DNA of 23,038 nucleotides. It comes from an uncultured Clostridia bacterium (GTDB taxonomy: Bacteria > Bacillota > Clostridia > Oscillospirales > Oscillospiraceae). The stretch's first letter is position 1, and each line of letters opens with the position of its first letter. A program made the position numbers and the translations under genes. The stretch spans positions 1-23,038 of the forward strand of contig CAMELY010000005.1 of the NCBI GenBank assembly GCA_945926565.1. The letters are read 5' to 3'. Below the pieces are notes generated by a model, which ran no database searches, was not told the origin of the DNA, and saw only the letters and a list, made by a program, of their open reading frames with translations. This document shows positions 2,430 to 19,882 of the stretch, piece after piece.

Positions 2430-3038
2430 ATGACGCAGCGAGAAATGAGACAGCCGGAGCCCCGGAAGGGGAGACGGCAGTCCAAACAGCCGGAGTCCGG
2501 GGAGAGCTGGCAGCAGGAGCTGTTCGGCGAACTGAAGGTTCTGGTGGTGGTACTGACGGCTACCATCCTGATCTTTCACTTTCTGACCCAGCTGATTGTA
2601 GTGGTGGGCTCCTCCATGTACCCCACCCTCTACGACGGGGATCTGGTGCTGGCCTGGCGGCTGAACTACCAGCCGGAGACAGGGGATGTGGTCATCGTCC
2701 ACAAGGAGACGGATGTCATCCATGAGAACATCGTCAAGCGGGTCATTGCCACCGGCGGCCAGACGGTGGAGCTGGACTATGACCAGAACGCCGTCTATGT
2801 GGATGGCGTCCGGCTGGAGGAGGGGTATATCAACCTGGAGGAGGCCGACCCCATGGAGGTTCGGGGAGATGTGGTGAGCATCGACGTGCCTGAGGGCTCC
2901 ATCTTTGTCATGGGTGACAACCGGAACCACTCCACCGACAGCCGCTTTACAGTAGAACTGGGCATCGTGGACGAGGGATATATCATCGGCAAGGGTCTCT
3001 TTGTCTTCTTCCCGTTCAATCATCTGAAGCTGTTGTAG
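2430..3038 (+). CDS. lepB: Signal peptidase I
   Basis: A 202-residue type I signal peptidase of the short Gram-positive form. A basic, hydrophilic N-terminal tail of about 35 residues precedes a single membrane helix (about 36-60). The catalytic serine is S62 in GSSMYPTL and the catalytic lysine is K103 in VKRVIA. The conserved box GDNRNHSTDSR at 162-172 closes the S26 fold. The enzyme cuts signal peptides from exported proteins at the outer face of the membrane, and clients in this window would include the LRR/fibronectin protein at 7432. The ATG at 2430 follows AAAGGAGA. The nudix gene follows after 10 bases, and its ribosome site overlaps the lepB stop codon, suggesting coupled translation. 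Confidence 0.95.
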   Translation: MTQREMRQPEPRKGRRQSKQPESGESWQQELFGELKVLVVVLTATILIFHFLTQLIVVVGSSMYPTLYDGDLVLAWRLNYQPETGDVVIVHKETDVIHENIVKRVIATGGQTVELDYDQNAVYVDGVRLEEGYINLEEADPMEVRGDVVSIDVPEGSIFVMGDNRNHSTDSRFTVELGIVDEGYIIGKGLFVFFPFNHLKLL

Positions 3039-7431: not shown

Positions 7432-10134
7432 ATGAAAAAGTGGAAGCAAGGGCTGCTCTCCCTGTGCCTGGCACTGACGGCGGCGGCGCTGTTTCTGCCG
7501 ACCTCGGGCTGGGCGGCGGAGGATCTGCTGCTGGACGGCGGGATTGGCGTTACGGCGGAAGAGCTGACGCCGGAAGCGGCCGTGCAAGCCGATGCGTACG
7601 GCGCGGACGGTACAGATGATACGGAAGTGGACATGACACTGGCCGCCCCTGTGCTGACCGGCGCGGAGACTGTCGCTGTTCAGGACAAAGGGGGAAACTG
7701 GTACAGTGTGGTCAGAGTCACCTGGGAGCCGGTGGAAGGAGCTGAAAAATATCAGGTCCTCCGGCGGACGGAGGACGGCGACTGGGAGACAGCGAGCTAT
7801 TCCGCCGAAACCAGCTATGAAGATTATGACGTGACCCGCTCCACTTTCTATTACTACACTGTCCGCTGTGTGGACACAGCCAGTGAGCCCTGCAGCCCCT
7901 ATGATGAGAAGGGCGTCTCGGTCTATTATCCCTCCGGCAGCTGTGGGGAGCAGGTCTCCTGGAAGCTGGTCTCCGGCAATGTGCTGGAGATCACCGGCAG
8001 CGGCTCCATGTATGACACCTATAATATGGAGACGAGTCCCTGGTATGCCCTGCGCCGGTACATCACCCAGGCGCGGGTAGGGGAGGGAGTCACCCACCTC
8101 AGCGGCTACGCCTTCCAGGGCTGCACAGCGCTGAAAGAGGCCATACTGCCGGAGAGCCTGACCTCTGTGGGAACGTATGCCTTTTTCAACTGCACTGCTC
8201 TGGAGACGGTGAACCTTCCTCAGGGGATAACGGAAATTCCTGAGCGTACCTTTTACGGCTGCAGCAGCCTCACCGGGCTGACCTTGCCAGACGGTCTGAC
8301 GGCCATCGGAAAGGGAGCCTTTGACGGCTGCTCCAGACTGACTGGCCTGACCTTGCCGGAGAGCGTGACTGAGATTGGCTCATCCGCCTTCTCCAGCTGC
8401 AAAAAGCTGACCCGGATTGACCTCCCCCAGGGGGTGACGGCGCTGGGACTGAATACTTTCTATGGCTGCGTCTATTTGCAGGAGATCACATTCCCGGAGG
8501 GCTTTACCACACTGGGCGCTTATGCCCTCTCCGGATGTCTCAGCCTGACCAGCCTGGAGCTGCCGGAAAGCCTGACCAGCCTGGGAGTGGGCGCACTGCG
8601 GGGCTGCAGCGCGCTGGAAACCATCTTTTTCCGGGGCGGCTGCCCGGATATGAGTGGGGAGTCCTTCCCCACCGGCTGCGAGATCCGGGCTTACTATCCC
8701 ATGTACGACCAGAGCTGGACAGCTGAGCGGCGGCAGGCAGTGGACAACTCCAATCTGGTCTGGACTGGCTGGACGCCCTCCACTGGAGCCGTCCAGCGCT
8801 GCGCCACTCCGGTGCTGACGGCTGCCAACGACACGGGCGGCGTCAGGATCAGCTGGAACATAGTCCGGGGGGCGGAGCAATACCGTGTCTTCCGGTGGAA
8901 TGCGGCCCAAAAAAAGTGGAATACGCTGACCACTACGGGAGGGCTCAGCTATGTGGATACCACAGCCGCCAGCGGCACAACCTATCAGTATACAGTGCGC
9001 TGCCTTGTGGGCGGGAAGTACGCCAGCGGCTACGATCTGGAGGGAAGGACAGTCTGTTATCTGACAGCACCCGAGGTGAAAGCGGCCAATGCCGCCGGCG
9101 GCGTCACAGTCACCTGGTCGAAGGCGGCAGGCGCAGAGCAATATGTCGTCTACAGAAAGCTGGCGGGAGGCAAGTGGGAGATCCTGACCACAGTGAAGGC
9201 CGGGGAAAAACGCAGCTATCTGGATACCGGTGTGAAAGATGGGAGCGGAAACCGCTACTACTACACCGTGCGCTCTGTCAAAGGGGATGCGCGCAGCGAC
9301 TATGTAAAAAATGTCGCCCTCTATTACTTGAGCCAGCCTGCGGTGAAGGCCGCTTCGGCAGCCAACGGGGTCACAGTGACCTGGAGCCGGAGCGCCGGCG
9401 CGGAGAGCTATCGGGTCTACCGTAAAACAGGCAGCTCCAACTGGAAGGGGATCGCCACGGTTACCGGGGAGAAGACGCTGTGCTATTCCGATACGTCGGC
9501 GCAGAGCGGGACAACCTACATTTACACCGTCCGGGCCCAAAAGGGCGGAACACTCAGCTCCTATCTCACCTCCGGAGCGCAGGTGACCTATCTGACCCAG
9601 CCCGCTGTCTCGGTCAGCAATGGGAGCACCGGCGTCAATGTGTCCTGGAAAAAAGTTTCCGGTGCGGAAGGCTACCGGGTCTACCGGAAGATTCCGGGCG
9701 GAAGTTGGAGTCGGATCGCCACCCTCAAGGGGAGTGACACGCTTCAGTACACCGACAAGGGGATTGCAGATAAAAACGGCAGCACCTATCTCTATACGGT
9801 TCGGGCGGTGAAGGGAAGCGCCCTCAGCTCCTACCACAGCGGCAAGAGCATCATTCGCCTCACCCGGCCCAGCATTGCCAAGCTGAGCAACAGCAGCAGC
9901 CGCAAGCTCACGGTTCAGTGGGGCAAGAACAGCAAGGCCACCGGCTACCAGATCCAATATGCCACCAGCTCCGGCTTTTCCGGGGCCAAGACGGTGACGG
10001 TGACCTCAGGATCAACTGTAAAGACCACCATCTCCAGCCTTACCCGGGGAAAGACCTACTATGTCCGGGTGCGGGCAGTCTGTACTGCGGGGGCGTCACC
10101 TCCTATTCCGCCTGGAGCAGTACCAAAAGTCTGA
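7432..10134 (+). CDS. Secreted BspA-type leucine-rich repeat and fibronectin type III protein, C-terminus probably frameshifted
   Basis: A 900-residue exported protein. ATG 7432 follows GAGGAGGAA. Residues 1-28 are a signal peptide (basic start, hydrophobic core, likely cut after SGWA). A first fibronectin-III-like domain lies at about 66-160. Eight 23-residue LRR_5 repeats lie at 225-405, with the pattern AF.GC..L....LP.S.T.IG. Five fibronectin-III domains of about 86-89 residues follow at 458-890. No LPXTG, membrane anchor or SLH domain is visible, so it is either released or held by an unseen partner. BspA-type proteins commonly bind host or matrix proteins, but the ligand is unknown. The last 13 residues (ASPPIPPGAVPKV) do not fit the fold. 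Adding one G at the G5 run 10089-10093 restores GVTSYSAWSSTKSLKISK with a stop at 10148, about 905 residues. Confidence 0.9.
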   Translation: MKKWKQGLLSLCLALTAAALFLPTSGWAAEDLLLDGGIGVTAEELTPEAAVQADAYGADGTDDTEVDMTLAAPVLTGAETVAVQDKGGNWYSVVRVTWEPVEGAEKYQVLRRTEDGDWETASYSAETSYEDYDVTRSTFYYYTVRCVDTASEPCSPYDEKGVSVYYPSGSCGEQVSWKLVSGNVLEITGSGSMYDTYNMETSPWYALRRYITQARVGEGVTHLSGYAFQGCTALKEAILPESLTSVGTYAFFNCTALETVNLPQGITEIPERTFYGCSSLTGLTLPDGLTAIGKGAFDGCSRLTGLTLPESVTEIGSSAFSSCKKLTRIDLPQGVTALGLNTFYGCVYLQEITFPEGFTTLGAYALSGCLSLTSLELPESLTSLGVGALRGCSALETIFFRGGCPDMSGESFPTGCEIRAYYPMYDQSWTAERRQAVDNSNLVWTGWTPSTGAVQRCATPVLTAANDTGGVRISWNIVRGAEQYRVFRWNAAQKKWNTLTTTGGLSYVDTTAASGTTYQYTVRCLVGGKYASGYDLEGRTVCYLTAPEVKAANAAGGVTVTWSKAAGAEQYVVYRKLAGGKWEILTTVKAGEKRSYLDTGVKDGSGNRYYYTVRSVKGDARSDYVKNVALYYLSQPAVKAASAANGVTVTWSRSAGAESYRVYRKTGSSNWKGIATVTGEKTLCYSDTSAQSGTTYIYTVRAQKGGTLSSYLTSGAQVTYLTQPAVSVSNGSTGVNVSWKKVSGAEGYRVYRKIPGGSWSRIATLKGSDTLQYTDKGIADKNGSTYLYTVRAVKGSALSSYHSGKSIIRLTRPSIAKLSNSSSRKLTVQWGKNSKATGYQIQYATSSGFSGAKTVTVTSGSTVKTTISSLTRGKTYYVRVRAVCTAGASPPIPPGAVPKV
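8104..8646 (+). repeat. Eight tandem 69-base LRR_5 coding repeats
   Basis: Seven full 23-residue units run from GYAFQGC at 8104 to 8586, and a partial eighth ends near 8646. Each unit has an aromatic/Ala-Phe start, GC or NC, a leucine strand and LP-x-S/G at position 15-17. Unit length is constant, with no insertions. Confidence 0.85.
8803..10092 (+). repeat. Five tandem fibronectin type III coding repeats
   Basis: Units start near 8803, 9064, 9331, 9595 and 9862, 261-267 bases apart. Units 2-4 share near-identical phrases such as PAVKAAS, GVTVTWS, AGAE.YRVYRK and YTVR, indicating recent duplication. The fifth (SNSSSRKLTVQW) is the most divergent and resembles the terminal fibronectin unit of many clostridial surface proteins. 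Confidence 0.8.
10089..10093 (+). other. G5 tract at a probable one-base deletion
   Basis: Downstream of this run the expected C-terminal strand (GVTSYSAWSS) is encoded in another frame. Six Gs instead of five would join the two frames. Sequencing error, a true mutation or slippage are all possible. Confidence 0.7.
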
Positions 10135-11127: not shown

Positions 11128-11156
11128 TTGACACCCGGAGAAAAGTATGTTATAGT
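11128..11156 (+). promoter_or_regulatory. Promoter for the putative precursor peptide gene
   Basis: TTGACA (11128-11133), a 17-base spacer and TATAGT (11151-11156), one of the strongest promoters in the window. Transcription from about 11163 leaves a leader of about 105 bases containing short GGGAA/TTCCC complementary segments and ending in AAGAGGAGGA. Confidence 0.82.
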
Positions 11157-11268
11157 AGCTATACATAAAGGGAAACAGGCTTCCCTGCTGCTTCCCGGAA
11201 AGAATGTAATCTGTTTGCTGCTGATTTCTGGAAGCGCGACTCCAGAGAAGAAGAGGAGGAAACCTGAC

Positions 11269-11676
11269 ATGAAGAAAGTTTACGAGGCTCCGGCTGTTCA
11301 TCTGGAGCAGTTTGTGGCCAATGAGTATATTGCTGCCTGTGATAGTGGCACGGTGTACAAGTTTACGTGTGATGCGGGAGGCGGAGAGCGCGGCGATGTT
11401 TTTACTTCTACTGGAGAGAACTTAACTCGGGGCTCTAGGAAATATTATCATGCGTGTAACCAGACTCATGAGGCCAGTACTCAGGACGACTTTATTGAAG
11501 GAACTTTAGTGTTCAATGGTGGCAATGATCAAACAGGTGGTTATGTTGGCATGTGGCCGTTCGGTCACTATGAGGACTATGAGTCAACTCCTGTGATTAT
11601 CTGGACTGATGGTGGCACCAACGTTCACTGTACTACGGAGTTAGATATGGAAAATTGGAAGACTGACAAGTCTTAA
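11269..11676 (+). CDS. Putative ribosomally made, modified peptide precursor (135 aa)
   Basis: ATG 11269 is preceded by AAGAGGAGGA; an in-frame ATG at 11062 lies upstream of the promoter and is rejected. Residues 1-24 (MKKVYEAPAV, then NEYIAAC at 18-24) match from memory a leader-like start shared by many small peptides of gut Bacillota. The remaining 110 residues are rich in Gly, Asp, Thr and Tyr, with four cysteines (C24, C34, C63, C121) and no signal peptide or membrane helix. GC is about 47% by hand count against over 60% in flanking genes. A strong promoter lies before it and a terminator after it. The next genes encode radical SAM/SPASM, HPr-kinase-like, ABC exporter and PqqD-like proteins, so a precursor role is likely but inferred. 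The modification is unknown. Confidence 0.72.
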   Translation: MKKVYEAPAVHLEQFVANEYIAACDSGTVYKFTCDAGGGERGDVFTSTGENLTRGSRKYYHACNQTHEASTQDDFIEGTLVFNGGNDQTGGYVGMWPFGHYEDYESTPVIIWTDGGTNVHCTTELDMENWKTDKS

Positions 11677-11742
11677 GCTATACCACAGCCTTTACCCGGT
11701 GTTTAGGTCTGCGTATGGAACGACGATATGAATTACATTAAG

Positions 11743-11770
11743 AGGACCGGATGATTCCGGTCCTTTTTTT
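11743..11770 (+). terminator. Terminator/attenuator between precursor and radical SAM gene
   Basis: AGGACCGGA and TCCGGTCCT form a perfect 9-bp stem with a TGAT loop, followed by T6. It follows the precursor stop by 66 bases. No good promoter was seen between it and the radical SAM gene, so partial readthrough may supply the enzyme. Confidence 0.9.
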
Positions 11771-11816
11771 GCAAAGCAACGCAGAGGCGCGACCGTATGA
11801 GAGAAGGGAGGGTCAC

Positions 11817-12959
11817 ATGGAACAGACACAAAACCTGACCCGCATTGAGGAGCAGCTCTGTGACCGTGCCACCCAGGCCCTGAGGCCCATCGGCGGCACG
11901 CTGGAGCTGCTGCCTCTTTGCAATATGAACTGCGATATGTGCTATGTCCGCCTCAGCCGGGGGGAGCTGGAGCGGCAAGGCCGGCTGCGCACTGCCGATG
12001 AGTGGCTGGCCCTTGCCCGGGAGATGAAGAAAGAGGGGGTGCTCTTTCTGCTGCTCACCGGCGGGGAGCCGCTGCTCTATCCCGACTTCCGGCGGCTGTG
12101 GCTTGGCCTGCAGGAGCTGGGGATGATCCTCTCCCTCAACACCAACGGCACCCTGCTGGACGAGGATACCGCTGCCTTTTTGGGGGCCCACAAGCCCCGG
12201 CGGGTAAATATCACCCTCTACGGCTGTGACGACGGGGCCTATGAGCGCTTGTGCCACTATCCCGGCGGATTCAAAAAGACGATGCGGGGCATCCGCCTGC
12301 TTCAGGCCCAGGGGGTGGACATCCGCATGACCTGTACTGTCAGCCGGGAGAACCGGGACGATCTGGATCGGGTGATCGCCATCGGCAAGGAGCTGGGCGT
12401 CCACATGACGGTGGACACCTATCTGGATCCCGCCCAGCGGGAGCGGCCCCTGCCTTTTGACCAGCAGACCCGGCTCCCGCCGGAGGAGGCGGGCCGCCTG
12501 CGGGCCAGATTCTGGAAGCTGTTTTATGACCGGGAAAAGTACCGGGCAATGGCGGAGGAGATGGTCTGGCGGGCAACCCATACGCCGCCGGGAGAGGCTG
12601 TGCCGGGAAAGGTGCGCTGCCGGGCGGGGCGCAGCTCCTTTGTCATCAACTGGCAGGGACGGATGATTCCCTGCCTGATTCAGGATCACCTGTCTGCCAA
12701 CGCCTTTGAGCAGGGCTTTGCCGCCGCATGGGAGCAGATTACCCGGGGAACCCAGGAGATCCGCACCAGCCCGAGATGCAGTGCCTGCCGCTTGCGTACG
12801 GTCTGCACCGCCTGCTGTGCCCGAGCCCGGCAGGAGACGGGGGCCTTTGACGGCACGCCGGAATATCTCTGCCGCTATACGACGGGAATGATTCAGGCCA
12901 TGGCGGAGGATTTGGAGGAGATGGGGGTCATCAAAAGAGTGCCCGCTCCAAACAGCTGA
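11817..12959 (+). CDS. Radical SAM/SPASM peptide-maturase-like protein
   Basis: A 380-residue protein. ATG 11817 follows AGGGAGGG; an upstream in-frame ATG at 11751 lies inside the terminator hairpin and is rejected. The radical SAM cluster motif is C35-N-M-N-C39-D-M-C42 after LLPL, with GGEP at 82-85 and SLNTNGT forming the next strand. After about residue 275 comes a SPASM-type cysteine region: CRAG, IPC, CSAC, VCTACCA and a final YLC, enough for auxiliary Fe-S clusters. SPASM enzymes commonly install thioether or C-C links on peptides. The adjacent precursor and PqqD-like protein fit that. No separate N-terminal RRE domain is visible, so the PqqD-like protein at 15735 may supply leader binding. 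The last 29 bases overlap the 3' end of the convergent kinase-like gene. Confidence 0.9.
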   Translation: MEQTQNLTRIEEQLCDRATQALRPIGGTLELLPLCNMNCDMCYVRLSRGELERQGRLRTADEWLALAREMKKEGVLFLLLTGGEPLLYPDFRRLWLGLQELGMILSLNTNGTLLDEDTAAFLGAHKPRRVNITLYGCDDGAYERLCHYPGGFKKTMRGIRLLQAQGVDIRMTCTVSRENRDDLDRVIAIGKELGVHMTVDTYLDPAQRERPLPFDQQTRLPPEEAGRLRARFWKLFYDREKYRAMAEEMVWRATHTPPGEAVPGKVRCRAGRSSFVINWQGRMIPCLIQDHLSANAFEQGFAAAWEQITRGTQEIRTSPRCSACRLRTVCTACCARARQETGAFDGTPEYLCRYTTGMIQAMAEDLEEMGVIKRVPAPNS

Positions 12960-13773
12960 CCGCCTCCTCTGAGATGGTACATCCCAGGTAATACACCGGC
13001 ACCGTGGAGCAAAGCTCCAATGCCAGATCGGTGGCCCGGCTGGTGAAAGCCGGATTCCAGCGGTTGACAGTCAGCTGGCCAAAAACCAGCCGCATTGCCT
13101 CCAGCGGCGTGAGCCGGCGTGCGGAGTTCTCTTTTGCCTGACTGAGCATGACGATGGCGCGGATGGGGGTTGTCTCATTGTGACAGACGCCGGAGCTGCC
13201 GCAGACCGGCCAGCCCTGGGCAATCCAGCCGCCTGCACGCTTGCCCAGTAGGGCTCTGTCTCCGTTGACGGTCTCCGCCCCCCGGTACCGCTCCCACAGG
13301 TTGGCCTGGGTGGTCTTGCCGGTTTCGGAAGGGGCGGAGAAGAGGATTGCTTCTCCCCGGTATTTGACATAGGCGCAGTGGAGTACGAGCTGGTCTAAGA
13401 CGATCATCCGCCGTTCCAGCGCCAGCAGGGAGGCAAATATGGTGTCTGAGCCAAGCTGCTCCCGCCAACCCGGCGCCAGCGTAACCCGGGCGTGGGCGGC
13501 GTCCAACTCCTGATAGTAGGCATAGGGGACAGGGACGCCGGAAATGCCCAGCAGACGCCCCTCTCCCGTATCGGTCTGAAAGACGGTGAGATCCGGACGT
13601 CTGACCAGAGGCCGCGTCCGGGGCAGAAGGAGCGCGGAGGAGAAGCTCAGCTCATAGTGATAGGCCTCCGGCAGTACATTGGCCTCGAAAAGCGCCAGGT
13701 TTTCCGGCAGAGGCAGCATCTCCGGCACGGTGAGCCGAAAAGGGAAGGGGCCGATTTGGCAGCATCGTTGCAT
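12931..13773 (-). CDS. HPr-kinase-like (HprK-related) protein
   Basis: A 280-residue minus-strand protein. ATG at 13773 is chosen over an in-frame ATG at 13821 because GGAAAGGAAG lies 7 bases upstream of it and the longer version has no ribosome site. The P-loop is SAPSETGKTT at 146-155, with K153 and T154; H132 (LHCAYV) and N170-G171-D172-R173 follow the order seen in HprK-like kinases. The genuine HPr kinase signature EIRG is absent, so it is not the catabolite-control enzyme. Related proteins occur in peptide gene clusters; the lasso-peptide members phosphorylate the precursor. A role in phosphorylating or sensing the peptide is inferred. It is divergent from the ABC transporter (82-base gap) and its tail overlaps the radical SAM gene by 29 bases. 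Confidence 0.82.
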   Translation of the reverse strand: MQRCCQIGPFPFRLTVPEMLPLPENLALFEANVLPEAYHYELSFSSALLLPRTRPLVRRPDLTVFQTDTGEGRLLGISGVPVPYAYYQELDAAHARVTLAPGWREQLGSDTIFASLLALERRMIVLDQLVLHCAYVKYRGEAILFSAPSETGKTTQANLWERYRGAETVNGDRALLGKRAGGWIAQGWPVCGSSGVCHNETTPIRAIVMLSQAKENSARRLTPLEAMRLVFGQLTVNRWNPAFTSRATDLALELCSTVPVYYLGCTISEEAVSCLERALF

Positions 13774-13811
13774 AGCGCAGCTTCCTTTCCAGAAAAAGAG
13801 TTGTTTCTCAT

Positions 13812-13840
13812 AGCATAGCATTTTTTGTAGATAAAGTCGA
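13812..13840 (-). promoter_or_regulatory. Possible promoter for the HprK-like gene
   Basis: On the minus strand TCGACT (13835-13840) and TATGCT (13812-13817) are 17 bases apart, about 35 bases from the start codon. The match is moderate. No convincing promoter was seen on the plus strand for the divergent ABC gene. Confidence 0.4.
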
Positions 13841-13855
13841 TAGAGGAGGATCTCT

Positions 13856-15664
13856 GTGTTTGACGACGAGAGAGAAAATCAGCAGCAGCAGAAGAAGAAT
13901 GCCTTTTCCTCAGAGGCATTGAATACCCTTATCCGCCGTTGGAAGGAGGGCACCTTTTACGAGATTATAGACGACTGGAAGTGGATTTTCTCCTACAGTG
14001 CCCGCTATAAAGGCGCGATCCTCTTTTACACGCTGTTGGGTATCTTCAGCACCAGCATGGGCTTGGTGAGCAGCGTGGTCAGCAAATATCTGATTGACAT
14101 TGTCACCGGATACCAGTTTGACCGGCTGCCGGTGCTGATTGCTGTGATGGTCGGCAGCACTGTGTTCAGCCTGGTCTTCGACAGCCTGATCAGCCGTCTT
14201 TCCACCAAGCTGAGCATTTACATCAACAACGATATTCAGGCGGATATCTTTGACAAGATTATTGACGCAGACTGGCTCAAACTGAGCCAGTATTCCAACG
14301 GTGACGTGCTCAACCGCTTCAACGGCGATGTGAGCACAGTGAGCGGAAACGCCATCAGCTGGCTGCCCAGCATCATTATCACCGTCTACAATTTTGTCGC
14401 TACCTTTGTCCTGATTCTGCACTATGACGTGGTGATGGCGGTCATCGCCTTTGCCAGCGCGCCCTTTATGCTGCTGGCCTCCAGGGTGCTGATTACCAGG
14501 CAGCGGGAGTACAACAAAAAAATGCGGGAAATGAGCAGTCAGCTCATGACCTTTGAGGCCGAGACCTTTTATAACTTCGACACCATCAAATCCTTCGGCA
14601 TTTCCGGTCTTTACGGGCGAAAAATGCGGGGATGGCAGGAGAAGTTCAAGAAGGTCAGTCTGGACTACAATCTGTTTTCCATCAAAACCAATATCTTTAT
14701 GTCCATCCTGGGCACGCTGGTGCAGTTCCTTGCCTTTGGCTACTGCCTGTTCCGCCTGTGGACGGGAGATATTACCTATGGCACCATGACGCTGTTCATG
14801 ACCCAGCGGAGTAAGCTCTCCAGCGCCTTTTCCTCCCTGGTGTCCATTATCCCCTCCTTCCTCAACAGCTCCGTCTCCGCTCACCGGATCCGGGAGCTGG
14901 TACAGCTGCCCCGGGAGGTGCATATCCCAGAGGAGTCGGAGGAGATGGCCCGGGCGGCAGCCCAAGGCTTTGAGGTGCGGATGACCGGAGTGGATTTCTC
15001 CTATGTGGAGGCTCAGCGGGTGATCACCCACTCCGACTTTGTGGCCCGGCCCGGCGAAATTGTGGCCCTGGTGGGCCCCAGCGGGGAGGGTAAGACCACC
15101 CTGATCCGGCTCATTCTGGGCCTGATCCGGCCGGAATCCGGTGAGGCCCTCCTGGTGGGCGGCGACGGGAGCCAGGTGGAGATCAACGCTGATACCCGCC
15201 GCTATTTTGCCTATGTGCCCCAAGGCAACACCCTGCTCTCCGGCACAGTGGAAGAGAATCTGCGTATGGTCAAGGAGGACGCCACAGAGGAAGAGATCGT
15301 CCAGGCGCTGAAGACCGCCTGCGCCTGGGACTTTGTCCAAAAGCTGGAGGGCGGCATTCACGGCAAGCTGGGCGAGCGGGGAAGAGGCATTTCCGAGGGC
15401 CAGGCCCAGCGGATCGCCATCGCCCGTGCGGTGCTCCGGGACGCCCCGGTGCTGCTGCTGGACGAGGCAACGTCTGCGCTGGATGTGGAGACAGAGCGGC
15501 AGGTGCTGCGCAATATCGTCCGGCAGAATCCCAACAAGACCTGCATTGTCACCACCCATCGGCCCAGCGTGCTGGGCCTGTGCCAGCGGGTGTATCGGGT
15601 GATGGAGACCCGGGTGCGGGAACTCACCGAGGAGGAGTCTGCGAAAATGGTGATGGATTTCTGA
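13856..15664 (+). CDS. Exporter-type ABC transporter (membrane domain fused to ATPase)
   Basis: A 602-residue half-transporter with a GTG start at 13856 after AGAGGAGGA. An acidic/Gln-rich N-terminus (MFDDERENQQQQKK) precedes about six membrane helices (about 55-330). The ATPase is intact: Walker A GPSGEGKTT with K413, Q-loop VPQGN, signature ISEGQ at 512-516, Walker B VLLLDEAT with D536 and E537, and H568 in TTHRPS. The N-terminus lacks a C39 peptidase domain, so it would export without cutting a leader, unless a separate protease does so. It would act as a homodimer. Next to the peptide, radical SAM and PqqD genes it is a plausible peptide exporter. It heads a run of five same-strand genes to 19804. 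Confidence 0.93.
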   Translation: MFDDERENQQQQKKNAFSSEALNTLIRRWKEGTFYEIIDDWKWIFSYSARYKGAILFYTLLGIFSTSMGLVSSVVSKYLIDIVTGYQFDRLPVLIAVMVGSTVFSLVFDSLISRLSTKLSIYINNDIQADIFDKIIDADWLKLSQYSNGDVLNRFNGDVSTVSGNAISWLPSIIITVYNFVATFVLILHYDVVMAVIAFASAPFMLLASRVLITRQREYNKKMREMSSQLMTFEAETFYNFDTIKSFGISGLYGRKMRGWQEKFKKVSLDYNLFSIKTNIFMSILGTLVQFLAFGYCLFRLWTGDITYGTMTLFMTQRSKLSSAFSSLVSIIPSFLNSSVSAHRIRELVQLPREVHIPEESEEMARAAAQGFEVRMTGVDFSYVEAQRVITHSDFVARPGEIVALVGPSGEGKTTLIRLILGLIRPESGEALLVGGDGSQVEINADTRRYFAYVPQGNTLLSGTVEENLRMVKEDATEEEIVQALKTACAWDFVQKLEGGIHGKLGERGRGISEGQAQRIAIARAVLRDAPVLLLDEATSALDVETERQVLRNIVRQNPNKTCIVTTHRPSVLGLCQRVYRVMETRVRELTEEESAKMVMDF

Positions 15665-15671
15665 CCGGGAC

Positions 15672-15701
15672 TTGTAGGATGAGGTTTCAGTGTGTTACAA
15701 T
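15672..15701 (+). promoter_or_regulatory. Possible internal promoter before the PqqD-like gene
   Basis: TTGTAG (15672-15677), 18 bases, TACAAT (15696-15701), in the 70-base gap after the ABC gene. Transcription would start about 30 bases before ATG 15735. Moderate match only. Confidence 0.4.
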
Positions 15702-15734
15702 AACCTGAACTTGGATTTTCAGGAGGGCAGACAG

Positions 15735-16001
15735 ATGAAAATCAGCAGAGACTATATCATCCGGGAAATTGCGGGCGAATATGTGGTGGTGCCTACCGGC
15801 GCGGCAGCGGCACGCTTTAACGGCCTGATTACCATTAACGGTATCGGCGCCTTCCTGTGGCGCATGCTCCAGGAGGAGGCGGACGAGGCCGGACTGCTTC
15901 AGGCAGTGCTGGAGGAGTACGAGACGGACGAGGCTACGGCGAAGGCGGATATCGCACAATTTCTCCAGGTGCTGGAGCAGAACGGCATTCTGGAACGCTG
16001 A
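15735..16001 (+). CDS. PqqD-like peptide chaperone / RiPP recognition element
   Basis: An 88-residue protein, the usual PqqD length. ATG 15735 follows CAGGAGGGC; the in-frame upstream ATG at 15690 overlaps the possible internal promoter. The fold signatures are present: YIIREIAGEYVVVP (a three-strand start), RFNGLITINGIGAFLW (the conserved N..G..IW-like turn), then an Asp/Glu-rich helix and D-x-x-x-FL-x-x-L-x-x-NGIL at the end. PqqD proteins grip the leader of a peptide and present it to a radical SAM enzyme. The best partner in the window is the radical SAM protein at 11817, although it lies on the far side of the HprK-like and ABC genes. Confidence 0.87.
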   Translation: MKISRDYIIREIAGEYVVVPTGAAAARFNGLITINGIGAFLWRMLQEEADEAGLLQAVLEEYETDEATAKADIAQFLQVLEQNGILER

Positions 16002-16033
16002 TGCTGCTGAATGAGGAGGACTGAACGAGACCG

Positions 16034-16861
16034 ATGAGAAGACCGATCCAGTTTTGGCTGTTTGTGCTCCTGATTGCGGTAAGCGCCGTCTTTGCCGTCA
16101 CATTATGGGGAGATATGTCCCGGGAGGTCAACCGCAGCCCCGAGATTTCCTTTGACGCCCAGGAGATTACGGTCAGCGTGTCAGACGACCAGTCTGCCCT
16201 GCTGCAGGGGGTCACCGCCAGCGACTCAGAGGACGGAGATGTGACCGGCTCTCTGGTGGTGGAGAGCATCGCCGAATTTCAGGAGGATGGCTCCCGGGAG
16301 GTGACCTACGCCGCCTTTGACAACTCCGGAAATGTGAGCAAGGCCAGCCGGCAGCTCCGCTACAGCGACTATCGCAGCCCGGAGATCAAGCTGGTCCAGG
16401 AACTGAAAACGGTGGTGGGCACCGATATCAACCTCCAGGACTGTGTCCGGGTGGAGGACGTGCTGGACGGGGATCTCACCAATCAGCTCCGTATTGTGGA
16501 GAGCGATTACAGCAACTATGTGCCCGGCGAATATCAGATTACGATTCAGGTGACCAACAGCGCCGGAGACACCACAGAGCAGACCTTTCCCATTCAATGT
16601 GTCTCTGAGCAGGAGCTGGGAGTTCCCACAATCACGCTGTCTGTCTACAGCGTCACGCTGCAGACGGGGGCGGCGTTCCGGGCCGAAGACTACATTGAGG
16701 AGGTCAGCGGGTCCGATGAGACGGGCCGGACGCTGACCAGTGCGGATGTCCGCATCTCCAGCGGGGTGGATACGCAGGAGCCGGGCACCTATCAGGTGGG
16801 CTATTCCCTGCAGGGCAGCGGAGGTACGGGCACTGCCCGGCTCACAGTGATTGTCGAGTGA
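16034..16861 (+). CDS. Membrane-anchored Ig-like (DUF5011-type) extracellular protein
   Basis: A 275-residue protein. An N-terminal helix (about residues 7-25) anchors or exports it; there is no lipobox. The rest looks like three beta-sandwich domains: one near 38-110 with ASDSEDGDVTG, one near 113-195 with VEDVLDGDLTN, and one near 200-275. The D-x-x-DGD and PGTY.V.Y phrases are typical of DUF5011/HYR-type domains found on Bacillota surfaces, often beside capsule-export genes. The GAGGAGGA site is 13 bases from ATG 16034, rather long. It lies between the PqqD-like gene (32-base gap) and the first Wzz/kinase (13-base gap), pointing to a role at the cell-envelope side of that system. Function unknown. 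Confidence 0.8.
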   Translation: MRRPIQFWLFVLLIAVSAVFAVTLWGDMSREVNRSPEISFDAQEITVSVSDDQSALLQGVTASDSEDGDVTGSLVVESIAEFQEDGSREVTYAAFDNSGNVSKASRQLRYSDYRSPEIKLVQELKTVVGTDINLQDCVRVEDVLDGDLTNQLRIVESDYSNYVPGEYQITIQVTNSAGDTTEQTFPIQCVSEQELGVPTITLSVYSVTLQTGAAFRAEDYIEEVSGSDETGRTLTSADVRISSGVDTQEPGTYQVGYSLQGSGGTGTARLTVIVE

Positions 16862-16874
16862 GGGGGGAGCGCGT

Positions 16875-18287
16875 ATGACAAGCTATGGACGGGAGGGCGT
16901 GGAAAACGCCCGGTTTCTGCTCCCCACCATTCTGGGAGATGTGCTGCGCCAGTGGCTTACCATCCTGCTGGCCGGACTGATCGCCGCTATGAGCGCCTTT
17001 ATCTGGCTGTCCTGGAGTTGGCAGCCGGAGTACAGCATGACCGCCTGCTATGCGATCATGTCCAAGGCCACCGACGGATATGTGAGCTATACCACCGGAT
17101 CCGTCTCCTATACAGTGGCCACTACCTTTAAATATCTCATTGACAGCGATATCCTCCAGGCTGAGGTGGCGGACGCCATGGGAACAGACCGCCTGGATGG
17201 GACGATCCAGACGGAGATCCTGAAGGATACCAATATCATGTATCTCACGGTGAAGGCGTCCACGCCGAAGAAGACCTACGACATTATGAGCGCCGTGGTG
17301 GAGAACTATCAGGAGCTGGTGGATGCTGTGCTGGGCAGCGTCACTCTGGATATGCTGGAGCGGCCGGTGATTCCTACCGCACCAAGCAACCAGCCCAATC
17401 GTGCCCGGACGGCGGCGACAGCCGGACTGCTGGCCATGGGTCTGACAGCGGCCCTGCTGGCCTTCCTCTCCTATAGCCGGGACTCGGTCAAGACGGAGGA
17501 GGACTTCCGGATCAAGCTGAATCTGAAGCGGCTGGCCACGATTCCGCAGGAGCGGCGGCGGCTGTCCCAGGGCCTTGATTTCCGCAAGCAGAAACACCTG
17601 CTCATCAATCAGTTTCCCATCAGCTATCAGTTTACTGAGGCAGTGGAGCTGCTGCGCACCAGCTTTGAGTACCGGGCGGAGAAGCAGAGCTGCAAGGTGA
17701 TTCTGGTGACCAGCACCATGCCCAACGAGGGCAAATCCACCGTCTCAGTCAATCTGGCCCTCTCTCTGGCCAAGGCGGGCAGCCGGGTCATCTTTATCGA
17801 CGGTGACCTGCGCAACCCCACCATCCACTCCATGCTTAAGCTGGACAAAGTGATTCGCCGGGATCTGGGCCAGTTCCTCCAGGGGCAGTGCGGCTTCCCT
17901 GATGTGGTAGTGGACTACAGAAACCCGGAGATGTATGTGCTGGCCGGCAAGGCCAGCTATGAAAACGCCTCGGAGCTGCTGGGCTCCCGTGTGATGAGCC
18001 TGATGATCCGGGAACTGCGGACCAAGGCGGACTATATTATCATCGACACGCCGCCTGCCGGCGCCATGGTGGACACCGAGGAGGTCTCTCACTATGCCGA
18101 CGGCGCTATCCTGGTGGTGCGGCAGAACCATGCCCCCACGGGAGCTATCCTGGATGTGGTGGACGCCCTGAAGCAGACCAAGATCCAGGTGCTGGGCTGC
18201 GTGTTCAACAATGTCCAGAACTGGGACTGGATGTCCGGACGGGACTATCAGCCGGCGGCCGGGCAGAATGAAGGACACCGCCGGTAA
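16875..18287 (+). CDS. Wzz / BY-kinase fusion, active-type (polysaccharide co-polymerase with tyrosine autokinase)
   Basis: A 470-residue protein. ATG 16875 follows GGGGGGAGC; an upstream in-frame TTG at 16851 overlaps the previous stop. Residues 1-205 form a Wzz-type module with two membrane helices (about 27-47 and 178-199) around an outer domain. Residues 260-450 form a BY-kinase ATPase with intact Walker A PNEGKST (K287), Walker A' DGD (D309, D311) and Walker B IIIDTPP (D391). Such kinases control capsule or exopolysaccharide chain length by cycling tyrosine phosphorylation. Unusually, the C-terminal end has a single tyrosine (Y458) instead of a tyrosine cluster. The next gene, 14 bases downstream, is a paralogue with the opposite set of features. 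Confidence 0.9.
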   Translation: MTSYGREGVENARFLLPTILGDVLRQWLTILLAGLIAAMSAFIWLSWSWQPEYSMTACYAIMSKATDGYVSYTTGSVSYTVATTFKYLIDSDILQAEVADAMGTDRLDGTIQTEILKDTNIMYLTVKASTPKKTYDIMSAVVENYQELVDAVLGSVTLDMLERPVIPTAPSNQPNRARTAATAGLLAMGLTAALLAFLSYSRDSVKTEEDFRIKLNLKRLATIPQERRRLSQGLDFRKQKHLLINQFPISYQFTEAVELLRTSFEYRAEKQSCKVILVTSTMPNEGKSTVSVNLALSLAKAGSRVIFIDGDLRNPTIHSMLKLDKVIRRDLGQFLQGQCGFPDVVVDYRNPEMYVLAGKASYENASELLGSRVMSLMIRELRTKADYIIIDTPPAGAMVDTEEVSHYADGAILVVRQNHAPTGAILDVVDALKQTKIQVLGCVFNNVQNWDWMSGRDYQPAAGQNEGHRR

Positions 18288-18301
18288 AGGGGGGATCGGA
18301 T

Positions 18302-19804
18302 ATGAGCAGCTATGAAAAGCAGGAAGCGGGGCAGGAGGAACTGATTGATCTGACCGTTGTACTGCACCAGTTCTTTAAGATCCTCCGGCAGATGCTGGCG
18401 CTTGTGCTGACCCTGACCGTGCTGGGCGGCGCGGGCTATTGGGCGCTGCAGCGGTTGAGATATACGCCCCAATATACCGCCTCCGCGCCCTTCGTGGTCA
18501 GAGCGAGCTCCGGGGGGATTGTCAATGAGTACAGCGACAGCCTGACGGCAGAGCAGTTGGCCAATCAGTTCCCTCAGATCATCAACAGCAGCGCCCTGCA
18601 GAAGCGGGTAATGCGGGAATTGGGGCTGGACTATATCCCCGGCACCATCAGCCTGGATTTGGTTCAGGACACCAAGCTGGTGACCATGCGGGCCACTGCC
18701 CGGGATCCCCAGATGGCCTACGATATTCTGATTGCTGTGCTGAACAACTATGAAGAGGTTTCCTTCAAGGTGCTGGGCAGCACGTCCATGACGTTGCTGC
18801 GGGAGCCAGTGGTGCCGACCGAGGTGGACAACCCCTTTTCCGACCTGCGTCAGCTGGCCAAGGGCGCACTGGGCGGCCTGACGGCGGGCCTGCTGATTGT
18901 GCTGGTCTTCGCCATGACCCGCTTTACCATCAAGGACAAGGAGGATGTGAAAAAGCAGCTGAACATCCCCTACCTGGGCGCGGTGCCCAGGGTGCCTGTC
19001 CGGCGGCTGGGCAAGGGCAGGGAGAGCCTGATCTCTGTCTCCAATGAGCGAGTCGGTTTTGGTTTTCAGGAGGGCATGCGGCTGGTCCGCTCCCGCCTGA
19101 TGCGGCAGATGGCGGTGGATGAGGAGAGCGAAACCCTGCTGCAAAAGGTCATTCTGGTCACAAGCGCGGCGGCCAAGGAGGGCAGCACCACCATCGCTGT
19201 GAATCTGGCCCTGACCATGGCGGCCAAGGGAAAACGGGTCATTCTGGTGGATTGTAATCTGCGCAGCCCGGAACTGAAGCGGCAGTACGGCCTGCCTCGG
19301 GATGCCTTCGGCATACAGGATGTGCTGGATGGGCGATGCAGCCTCAATGATGCGCTGACGCCCTATGAATCGGAAAACCTCCTGGTGATGGCGGGCGACC
19401 GCAGGATAGCCGAGTCTTCCGGGCGGATTCTCAGCAGCGCCATGGGTCAAGTGCTCCAGGCCCTGCGGCAGGCGGCGGATTTTGTGATTCTGGACACGCC
19501 GCCGGCGGGCGCAGTGGCGGACGCCGGAAATCTGGCCCGGTACTGCGACGGCATTGTGGTGGTCATCAAACAGGATACGACCCGAGTCTCCCGGATTGTC
19601 CGGGCGGTGGAGGAGCTGTCTGAGAGCGGAGCGCCGATTCTGGGCTGTGTGCTCAGCGCAACAGAGGGCGGCGAAGGCGGCTATGGCTATGGTTATGGCT
19701 ACAGCTACAGCGGATACGGTTATGGCTATGGTAGCTACGGCTACGGTTATGGAAACTACGGCGGGAAACAGCCGGACAGAGGCCGAAAACCAAAAGCGGA
19801 ATAA
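18302..19804 (+). CDS. Wzz / BY-kinase fusion with degenerate ATP site and tyrosine-rich tail
   Basis: A 500-residue paralogue of the preceding protein. ATG 18302 follows AAAGGGGGGATC. Wzz-type helices lie at about 31-49 and 187-206. The kinase-like domain runs from about 275 to 450. Walker A reads AAKEGSTT (292-297), with S295 where the catalytic lysine should be. Walker A' reads DCN (D317, N319) instead of DxD. Walker B ILDTPP (D398) is kept. The C-terminus carries 12 tyrosines between Y461 and Y486 in GY repeats, ending in a basic KPKAE tail. It may be a pseudokinase and a phosphoacceptor for the upstream kinase; that is inference. No glycosyltransferase genes lie nearby. It ends the operon with a terminator 11 bases downstream. 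Confidence 0.88.
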   Translation: MSSYEKQEAGQEELIDLTVVLHQFFKILRQMLALVLTLTVLGGAGYWALQRLRYTPQYTASAPFVVRASSGGIVNEYSDSLTAEQLANQFPQIINSSALQKRVMRELGLDYIPGTISLDLVQDTKLVTMRATARDPQMAYDILIAVLNNYEEVSFKVLGSTSMTLLREPVVPTEVDNPFSDLRQLAKGALGGLTAGLLIVLVFAMTRFTIKDKEDVKKQLNIPYLGAVPRVPVRRLGKGRESLISVSNERVGFGFQEGMRLVRSRLMRQMAVDEESETLLQKVILVTSAAAKEGSTTIAVNLALTMAAKGKRVILVDCNLRSPELKRQYGLPRDAFGIQDVLDGRCSLNDALTPYESENLLVMAGDRRIAESSGRILSSAMGQVLQALRQAADFVILDTPPAGAVADAGNLARYCDGIVVVIKQDTTRVSRIVRAVEELSESGAPILGCVLSATEGGEGGYGYGYGYSYSGYGYGYGSYGYGYGNYGGKQPDRGRKPKAE

Positions 19805-19815
19805 GATACAGACAA

Positions 19816-19847
19816 TGAGGGCAGGAACAGCTTCCGGCCCTCATTTT
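19816..19847 (+). terminator. Terminator of the ABC-PqqD-Ig-kinase operon
   Basis: TGAGGGC pairs with GCCCTCA, extended past an A-G mismatch by GGAA/TTCC around a CAGC loop, followed by TTTT at 19844-19847. Confidence 0.82.
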
Positions 19848-19882
19848 AACTGACAAAAAGGATGGGCGTAGGTTTGCTGTCC

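Follow-up and report, generated by a model that had tools for sequence, protein, structure and literature searches.

Why genes for maturing a ribosomally made peptide should stand next to a pair of capsule-type tyrosine kinases, and whether the two sets act together, is the question raised by a locus of an uncultured Clostridia bacterium (Oscillospiraceae). The stretch of DNA analyzed here (the window, 23,038 nucleotides) is contig C5 (CAMELY010000005.1) of a 1.44-Mb assembly, 77% complete (GCA_945926565.1, labelled G000). The cassette in it encodes, in order, a peptide precursor (plus strand), a radical S-adenosylmethionine (rSAM)/SPASM enzyme (plus), an HprK-like kinase (minus), an ATP-binding cassette (ABC) exporter (plus), a PqqD-family protein (plus), a protein with immunoglobulin-like (Ig) repeats (plus), and two fusions of a Wzz-like segment with a bacterial tyrosine kinase (BY-kinase) domain, BYK1 and BYK2 (both plus). 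All of these had been named in an earlier note made from the letters of the sequence, and open reading frame (ORF) and domain scans found every one of them.

The best-supported explanation is a phospho-peptide pathway that follows the logic of paeninodin and of the linear polyphosphorylated peptides (LPPs), with an added rSAM step and a product coupled to a BY-kinase envelope module. On balance, we think that a small protein is produced and modified by the cassette and then coupled to an envelope polymer that the BY-kinase pair controls. Because the pairing with capsule-type kinases recurs in many relatives, it suggests that the modified protein becomes part of the cell-surface coat.

Recurrence in relatives

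The precursor, a lasso-type recognition element for ribosomally synthesized and post-translationally modified peptides (RiPP recognition element [RRE]), the rSAM/SPASM enzyme, a kinase with a predicted HprK fold, the ABC protein, and Ig/BYK1/BYK2 are linked in many lineages. Among 77 named rSAM loci, drawn from the best 80 of 537 confirmed, 27 had a BY-kinase within the fetched flank. Where full flanks were available, 16 of 33 named loci had one within about 10 kb of the rSAM gene, against 1.2% expected by chance from 52 BY-kinase loci in 87.9 Mb (the 31 genomes of those 33 loci; 18 weak MinD-like rows were excluded and would raise the expectation to 1.7%, and the locus test and the chance control relied on different BY-kinase models). 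HprK was present in 62 of the 77 loci, and rSAM, HprK, ABC, S26-like, CpsB, Ig, and BY-kinase genes occurred all together in 11 of 74, for example in Merdimonas faecis (L120), Candidatus Blautia merdipullorum (L093), and uncultured Oscillospiraceae (L115 and L124); two Bacteroidota loci (L142 and L162) had the full set except for an Ig match. The recurrent order is [NTP_transf_5]-RRE-precursor-rSAM-HprK-ABC-[S26-like]-[CpsB]-Ig-BYK1-BYK2-[LCP], with an LCP protein after BYK2 in L092 and L093. The window holds a rearranged copy of this cluster, in which the HprK-like gene is inverted relative to the canonical arrangement. Canonical relatives add a CpsB phosphatase, an LCP ligase, CapD, NTP_transf_5, and sometimes glycosyltransferases or Glf.

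Co-occurrence was also scored per genome. Across 32 genomes of the genus (rSAM called at E ≤ 1e-20; tandem-type BYK1 at >170 bits), rSAM was found in 8 of 8 genomes with tandem-type BYK1 and in 2 of 24 others (p = 4e-6, kinship ignored). Across 196 other genomes of the order (rSAM, E ≤ 1e-55; BYK1, E ≤ 1e-45), all three rSAM-positive genomes were among the six that were BYK1 positive (p = 1.6e-5, kinship ignored), and the three remaining BYK1-positive genomes were without rSAM. One of the three doubly positive genomes, G090, carries PqqD-precursor-HprK-rSAM-ABC-S26-Ig-BYK-BYK in a row; in G177 the rSAM and BY-kinase genes are about 13 kb apart, and in G249 they lie on different contigs. Recurrent linkage and genome-level co-occurrence together support the functional coupling of peptide genes and kinase pair that had been proposed for the window. 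The pair was beside glycosyltransferase matches in just 3 of the 27 BY-kinase-holding rSAM loci (low-sensitivity models), and rSAM presence across the genus was not independent of it.

On a tree of 57 rSAMs not cut by contig ends, the BY-kinase-linked label changed 15 times, with at least 11 changes forced by supported branches. Since shuffled labels gave a mean of 14.9, the linkage does not trace to a single event, and by this tree it has been gained or lost many times. A previous count, in which contig-cut rows were taken as unlinked, gave 27 changes for 40 BY-kinase rows and slight clustering of the label (13 of 500 shuffles were as low); it was discarded as inflated by 50 cut rows. Repeated gain and loss with co-occurrence kept suggests selection for the pair; repeated gain and loss alone also fits a shared island.

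The precursor and its terminal serine

The precursor gene (positions 11269 to 11676, plus strand) encodes 135 amino acids with a YxxP leader, an NEYIAAC leader end, a predicted beta-rich core, and a C-terminal Ser135; it had no Pfam or NCBIfam match. A search with it gave 182 proteins at E ≤ 0.001, counting its own entry, and listed 120 of these. In an alignment (A3) of the window protein with 119 of these listed relatives, all 120 sequences terminate in Ser. The leader is marked by P8, F15, and NEYVAA-C24; C24, C34, C63, H67, W112, H120, and W130 are invariant, C121 is present in 95%, and the C-terminal end reads T132-K134-S135. AlphaFold2 gave a mean predicted local distance difference test (pLDDT) score of 85 over the whole precursor; the leader was poorly defined, the core (approximately residues 27 to 133) was confidently predicted as beta-rich, and the predicted fold had no significant match in the PDB. 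The window precursor is 50% identical over nearly its full length to one from Phocaeicola faecium (Bacteroidota) and 45% identical to one from Candidatus Blautia merdipullorum; this conservation across phyla would favor a structural job over a fast-diverging antibiotic.

A leader model, built from only the first 36 residues of 19 hand-picked precursors and searched against ORFs near rSAM genes, gave 107 matches, of which 97 have a terminal Ser. The count was 95 of 104 once near-copies were removed and 79 of 85 outside the seed loci, compared with 34 of 723 other called genes of the window and named loci. Seven of the 10 precursors without a terminal Ser have Ser as the penultimate residue (one contig counted twice). 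A [Y/W]xxP motif was present in 103 of 107 leaders, and a [V/I/A]A-x(1-3)-C pattern in 98 of 107 precursor ORFs (whole ORF searched). The terminal Ser and the [Y/W]xxP leaders of these precursors are new observations.

Described systems give both features a context (the two papers are cited from passages of their text). [Y/W]xxP is the motif recognized by lasso RREs (PMC13381572). PadeK phosphorylates the C-terminal Ser of the precursor of paeninodin, and PsmN, annotated as a nucleotidyltransferase, is needed for a hexose on that phosphate, with a host glycosyltransferase remaining possible there (PMC9266682). Because HprK-like kinases of the paeninodin type phosphorylate the C-terminal Ser, we infer by analogy that the HprK-like kinase of the window does so too. 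Presence of a terminal Ser did not discriminate between loci with and without a local HprK (78 of 87 precursors versus 17 of 17).

Nine loci (L024, L025, L026, L028, L029, L032, L033, L035, and L036) encode short precursors of about 85 amino acids that likewise have a C-terminal Ser. There, HprK and rSAM genes stand beside giant secreted-type proteins (GH20 in L029, VWA in L025), and the fetched stretches hold no BY-kinase; in G016:C40 a BY-kinase is 11 kb away. As a side reading, these loci form a second, surface-protein-linked branch of the family.

Maturation enzymes and exporter

The rSAM gene occupies positions 11817 to 12959 (plus strand). Its product matched PF04055 at 89.4 bits and the SPASM model PF13186 at 22.4 bits (cut-off, 21.5); in 13 sequences (A1), C57/C61/C64, C290, C308, C355, and C374 are invariant and C343/C346/C352 nearly so. 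With a CX3CX2C motif and SPASM cysteines, it has the sequence marks of a radical SAM/SPASM peptide maturase, which is its predicted role.

The HprK-like kinase is encoded on the minus strand (positions 12931 to 13821, likely start 13773), with a conserved P-loop, His, and Asp and a predicted fold. Sequence support for this protein was weak (ScmC, E = 3e-4). Among 13 family members, ScmC was matched by all 13 at E ≤ 0.01, HprK_rel_B by 5, and Hpr_kinase_C (PF07475) by 1, and a profile search of PDB sequences reached HprK/P only at E = 0.2 to 0.9. In 92 sequences, H148, K169, and D188 are conserved at 98 to 99% and the P-loop residues S165/G168/K169/T171 within 95 to 99%; no conservation was seen in these sequences for the second Asp of the His-Lys-Asp-Asp motif. 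The predicted structure (pLDDT, 90) was matched by Foldseek to HprK/P and PEPCK (E = 1e-5 to 5e-5; probability, 1.0) with TM-scores of only 0.3 to 0.5. By the modelled fold, the P-loop, and the catalytic His and Asp, the protein is placed in the HPr kinase superfamily.

The exporter (positions 13856 to 15664, plus strand; PF00664 and PF00005) is an MsbA-like half-size ABC protein without a peptidase domain: no C39 peptidase match was found in it, and it scored 255 bits against MsbA_rel, below the model's cut-off of 780. The PqqD-family protein, a discrete RRE (positions 15735 to 16001, plus strand), matched PF05402 at 61.6 bits, measured on the ORF that opens at 15690; its ribosome-binding site (RBS) favors 15735. 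Its nearest solved structures are the lasso RRE TbiB1 (5v1u; E = 3e-4) and a PqqD-family protein (9x8z; E = 6e-4).

No window ORF matched the models of the S26-like protein, NTP_transf_5, or CpsB. Contig C6 of the same genome encodes NTP_transf_5, CpsB, and Glf by Pfam and an S26-like protein by motif. In relatives, S26-like proteins were recognized by a GSSMxPF motif, which we take to mark the family; the one copy scanned had no Pfam match. Their Ser-His spacing is 39 in 28 of 29 readable copies (9 of 38 were unreadable), and the spacing from His to the Asp of the next GD is mostly 15 (22 of 27 shown). The C6 locus (L077, positions 11491 to 19018) is the second Ig-BYK locus of the genome, comprises NTP_transf_5, CpsB, Ig, BYK1, S26-like, BYK2, and UDP-galactopyranose mutase genes, and holds parts absent from the window. 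An ordinary signal peptidase I (Peptidase_S26, 116 bits) is encoded in the window at positions 2445 to 3038, 8 kb upstream of the precursor; a leader peptidase role is possible in principle, and its neighborhood is housekeeping-like.

The ABC genes of G007 and G008 (L075, L076, and L031) are broken near contig ends, with extra bases past the match, which suggests a repeat or insertion in the exporter gene. G007 contig C83 begins with ABC residues 17 to 119 (55%) and C35 ends with residues 116 to 602 (76%). Joining them would have given precursor-HprK-rSAM-ABC-PqqD-Ig-BYK1-BYK2; as non-ABC bases are present at both ends and the two identities are unequal, the contigs were neither joined nor counted. 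Four proteins tested with PADLOC had no defense-system match.

The Ig protein, the kinase pair, and the polymer

The Ig protein (positions 16034 to 16861, plus strand; PF16403 in three stretches) is a single-span membrane protein with an N-terminal hydrophobic segment; an Ig match lies directly upstream of a BY-kinase in 37 of 40 BY-kinase loci examined. BYK1 (positions 16875 to 18287) and BYK2 (positions 18302 to 19804), both on the plus strand, scored 133 and 116.6 bits against TIGR01007 (cut-off, 108), and their Wzz parts, 15.8 and 24.5 bits, fall below the Pfam cut-off of 25.5. Within the window, the Walker A lysine is found only in BYK1 (PNEGKST), which has no Tyr-rich tail, and the tyrosine cluster only in BYK2 (AKEGSTT, lysine lost), with 12 Tyr in its last 45 residues. 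The lysine is present in 81 of 85 aligned BY-kinases; three of the four that have lost it are BYK2 of the window, G007, and G008 (12 to 14 Tyr in the last 45 residues), whose BYK1 partners keep the lysine and have one Tyr in that segment. The simplest reading of these residues is that BYK1 would be the kinase and BYK2 its tyrosine-bearing substrate, the two functions probably being split between two genes in the lineage of the window and its two orthologs (L075 and L076), to which the split is confined. A general division into kinase and pseudokinase was rejected, as both partners usually have a Tyr-rich tail in 37 pairs.

Among the window ORFs, none was matched best by a glycosyltransferase, Wzx, CapD, or Glf model (the glycosyltransferase models were single sequences of low sensitivity), and no glycosyltransferase Pfam domain was found in the 18 window proteins scanned; the earlier note had rightly seen no glycosyltransferases nearby. 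The locus is not a classical Wzy locus. PF02397 (Bac_transf, the initiating transferase; E ≤ 1e-10) was found in 15 of the 17 genus genomes whose BY-kinase matches were all of other types, in 1 of 8 tandem-type genomes, and in 0 of 7 without a BY-kinase (p = 5e-4, tandem versus other). In the exception, G010, the match is on a contig (C44) that also bears another BY-kinase match. The window's assembly, at 77% completeness, gave one PF00535 (glycosyltransferase family 2 [GT2]) match and no PF02397 match, and the other seven tandem-type genomes gave 3 to 12 PF00535 matches each. A complete loss of lipid-linked initiation was considered and rejected: PF00953 had at least one match in all 32 genus genomes and two in 30 (the exceptions, G000 and G014, had one), which leaves room for lipid-linked glycan initiation. 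An envelope glycopolymer is likely, because CpsB, LCP, CapD, and Glf occur in relatives.

Comparison with described systems

The closest described system is that of the LPPs (Popov et al., Nat Commun 2026, PMC13381572), whose clusters hold an RRE, an HprK-like kinase, a nucleoside triphosphate (NTP) transferase, an MsbA-like exporter, and a signal peptidase I (SpI)-like peptidase in capsule loci, with YxxP leaders. A discrete RRE, an HprK-like kinase, and an MsbA-like transporter are all in the window, and the YxxP leader and capsule-locus setting are shared. An NTP transferase and an SpI-like peptidase occur in this cassette's relatives and on G000:C6, although no window ORF matched models of either. 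The Ser-His spacing of 39 in the relatives' S26-like proteins equals that from S29 to H68 of LppS; H68 to D93 of LppS is 25, whereas the corresponding spacing here is mostly 15. An rSAM enzyme is present here, and the term "radical SAM" has no occurrence in the main text of the LPP paper. LppK phosphorylates core Ser3, whereas the conserved Ser here is the last residue of a core of about 110 amino acids that is predicted to be folded. The leaders, YxxPxVLxHQxIxFETxxS in LPPs and YEAPAVHLEQFVANEYIAAC in the window, have the YxxPxV part in common but not the rest. Hosts here include Clostridia and Bacteroidota of the gut; those described in the LPP paper are mostly Bacillota, with Bacilli in focus. 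Deletion of the LPP NTP transferase brought no change in a heterologous host (PMC13381572).

Paeninodin and pseudomycoidin resemble the cassette in an HprK-like kinase with a conserved C-terminal Ser, a nucleotidyltransferase-like enzyme, a lasso-type RRE, and a [Y/W]xxP leader (PMC9266682, in part). They differ in that an rSAM enzyme is present here, the precursor is much longer, and neither a lasso macrolactam cyclase nor a B2 leader peptidase was found in the 18 window proteins scanned. The in silico SynChlorMet cassette (TIGR04248 to TIGR04251) likewise combines rSAM (ScmE/F), a PqqD-like protein (ScmD), and ScmC, but the scores of the window proteins fall far short of the equivalog cut-offs (ScmC, 20 of 125 bits; ScmE, 85 of 400; ScmD, 15 of 100); to our knowledge, that cassette has no BY-kinase. 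Wzx/Wzy capsule loci with CpsC/CpsD-type BY-kinases share the Wzz-like and BY-kinase proteins, with CpsB and LCP in relatives of the cassette. They differ in that no glycosyltransferases or initiating transferase were found near the window locus, and Bac_transf in the genus goes with other BY-kinases rather than the tandem type. Among the papers listed by literature searches, mostly outside subscription papers, none was seen from title, abstract start, or passages to join rSAM, an HprK-like kinase, and a BY-kinase; the passages of PMC10352776 and PMC12710340 that were searched held nothing relevant.

Interpretation

In the pathway that we favor, the RRE would bind the [Y/W]xxP motif and present the leader, the rSAM enzyme would modify the core, with the four near-invariant cysteines as candidate targets, and the HprK-like kinase would put a phosphate on the C-terminal Ser. 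The NTP_transf_5 enzyme of contig C6, encoded next to the second Ig-BYK pair, may extend this phosphate, like the hexose addition by PsmN in pseudomycoidin, and the S26-like protein, also on C6, may cut at the [V/I]AA-C leader end, with the ABC protein exporting the product. We take PsmN to be a member of the NTP_transf_5 family. Outside the cell, the phosphopeptide would associate with, or be joined to, the glycopolymer handled by Ig/BYK1/BYK2, with BYK1 as the presumed active kinase and BYK2 as the carrier of the tyrosine tail. The pathway predicts that the last Ser carries a phosphate and is joined to an envelope polymer, which would connect RiPP maturation with BY-kinase capsule control. 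No biological role is known for phospho-modified RiPPs of the paeninodin and LPP types, and the frequent presence of their clusters in capsule loci lacks an explanation (PMC13381572). A bolder version, which we hold to be improbable, makes the peptide itself the acceptor or anchor of the BY-kinase-controlled polymer, with the C-terminal phosphoserine as the start or attachment point of the sugar chain. The HprK-like kinase and then NTP_transf_5 would replace the Bac_transf polyprenyl-phosphate glycosyl-1-phosphate transferase, of which seven of the eight tandem-BYK genus genomes gave no match. Were it true, Clostridia and Bacteroidota would have in common a surface polymer linked to protein, in whose making RiPP chemistry and BY-kinase machinery work together.

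Several results weigh against the favored pathway. Adjacency of rSAM and BY-kinase genes is not obligatory: on contigs as assembled, 4 of 21 rSAM matches in the genus were within 10.5 kb of a BY-kinase and 17 were not, and of the three rSAM-positive genomes of the order, only G090 had the two within 10 kb. Triads of rSAM, HprK, and precursor often stand without BY-kinases, and many BY-kinase-less rSAM matches (short-precursor triads) are beside giant secreted-type proteins. In G007, separate contigs carry the closest rSAM relative (C43) and the BYK1 ortholog (C35), and the co-occurrence tests carry no phylogeny correction. The exporter may belong to the BY-kinase module and not to the peptide, because ABC copies 70 to 72% identical to that of the window are at BY-kinase loci (L082 and L083) with no adjoining rSAM; in L083 an rSAM comes only at the next BY-kinase module. 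The terminal Ser does not track a local kinase, since all 17 precursors from 13 loci without a detected HprK (7 with full 10-kb flanks) retain it.

In a rival reading, two independent surface systems share a variable island and travel together with no joint action: one is a secreted modified peptide that serves as adhesin, toxin, or signal, and the other is a polysaccharide co-polymerase/kinase module. Triads and Ig/BYK pairs are each found alone in the genus, gene order and strand differ among G000, G003, G026, and G010, and the linkage label is spread over the tree in the manner expected of frequent gain and loss. Clusters for LPPs and paeninodin are also often in capsule loci, with a role not known (PMC13381572, in part). 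We nevertheless regard this as rather unlikely, because co-occurrence at the genome level is seen even without adjacency (e.g., in G005 and G016) and the order ABC-PqqD-Ig-BYK1-BYK2 is retained in G007 and G008, with the RRE gene within the row. Still less probable, and the least likely of the readings weighed here, is a system without a polymer, in which the BY-kinases would control how the peptide is exported or attached to the surface by phosphorylating tyrosines of the exporter or Ig protein; it corresponds to the first suggestion of the earlier note. The lack of a glycosyltransferase match near the locus, the single GT2 and no Bac_transf match in a 77%-complete assembly, and the seven of eight tandem-BYK genomes without Bac_transf agree with it, but the other seven of these genomes have several GT2 matches each, PF00953 is kept throughout the genus, and canonical relatives carry CpsB, LCP, CapD, and NTP_transf_5, with some glycosyltransferases or Glf. 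"Rather than polysaccharide," as that note had worded it, therefore goes too far, and its other suggestion, that the peptide is a surface component linked with a polymer, is the better fit. As for the serine, it might be a handle for export, ligation, or proteolysis while the HprK-like kinase modifies a different residue, in the way that LppK modifies Ser3 (PMC13381572, in part). The precursors that keep it without a detected HprK speak for this, but we doubt it, given that paeninodin-type kinases act on a conserved C-terminal Ser (PMC9266682, in part), that HprK is in most named loci, and that an HprK-less call covers the local locus, not the rest of the genome.

Other features of the window

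A predicted sigma-70-type promoter of the precursor (positions 11128 to 11156, plus strand; TTGACA-17-TATAGT, extended −10, 11 of 12 matches in a pattern scan) has its −35 box at position 11128. In the gap between the precursor and rSAM genes lies an intrinsic terminator (positions 11742 to 11770, plus strand; 10-bp stem and seven T, two of them paired in the fold). It was absent from the pattern-scan list and was supported by the fold of positions 11725 to 11765 (−18.1 kcal/mol; z, −4.8); it would raise the dose of precursor over maturase. The rSAM start is likely 11817, because the ORF opening at 11751 falls inside this hairpin. RBSs judged by eye support starts at 11269, 11817, 13773 (minus strand), 13856, 15735, 16034, 16875, and 18302. 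The five plus-strand genes from ABC to BYK2 are separated by gaps of 13 to 70 bp, and a hairpin 3′ of BYK2 (positions 19814 to 19845, plus strand; fold of 19805 to 19860, −20.7 kcal/mol; z, −5.7) is a probable operon terminator; the earlier description of five closely spaced same-strand genes ending in a terminator thus stands, except that it had overlooked the second strong terminator upstream of rSAM.

The cassette is flanked by what we take to be a LarE-like gene on one side and a presumed CYTH-like gene paired with deoC on the other; neither the LarE-like nor the CYTH-like protein had a Pfam match at 1e-5. Upstream of the cassette, positions 7432 to 10134 encode a BspA-type leucine-rich-repeat protein with a fibronectin type III domain. 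Among relatives, clusters L092, L093, L094, L120, and L122 have two rSAM genes, most of them also with two precursor types (HPNRS/PNHS-ending and ETAKS-like). MalT-like regulators with a LuxR-type DNA-binding domain adjoin clusters at L092:3158-5536 and L122:5792-7795, and L093:2282-4576 resembles them by appearance only.

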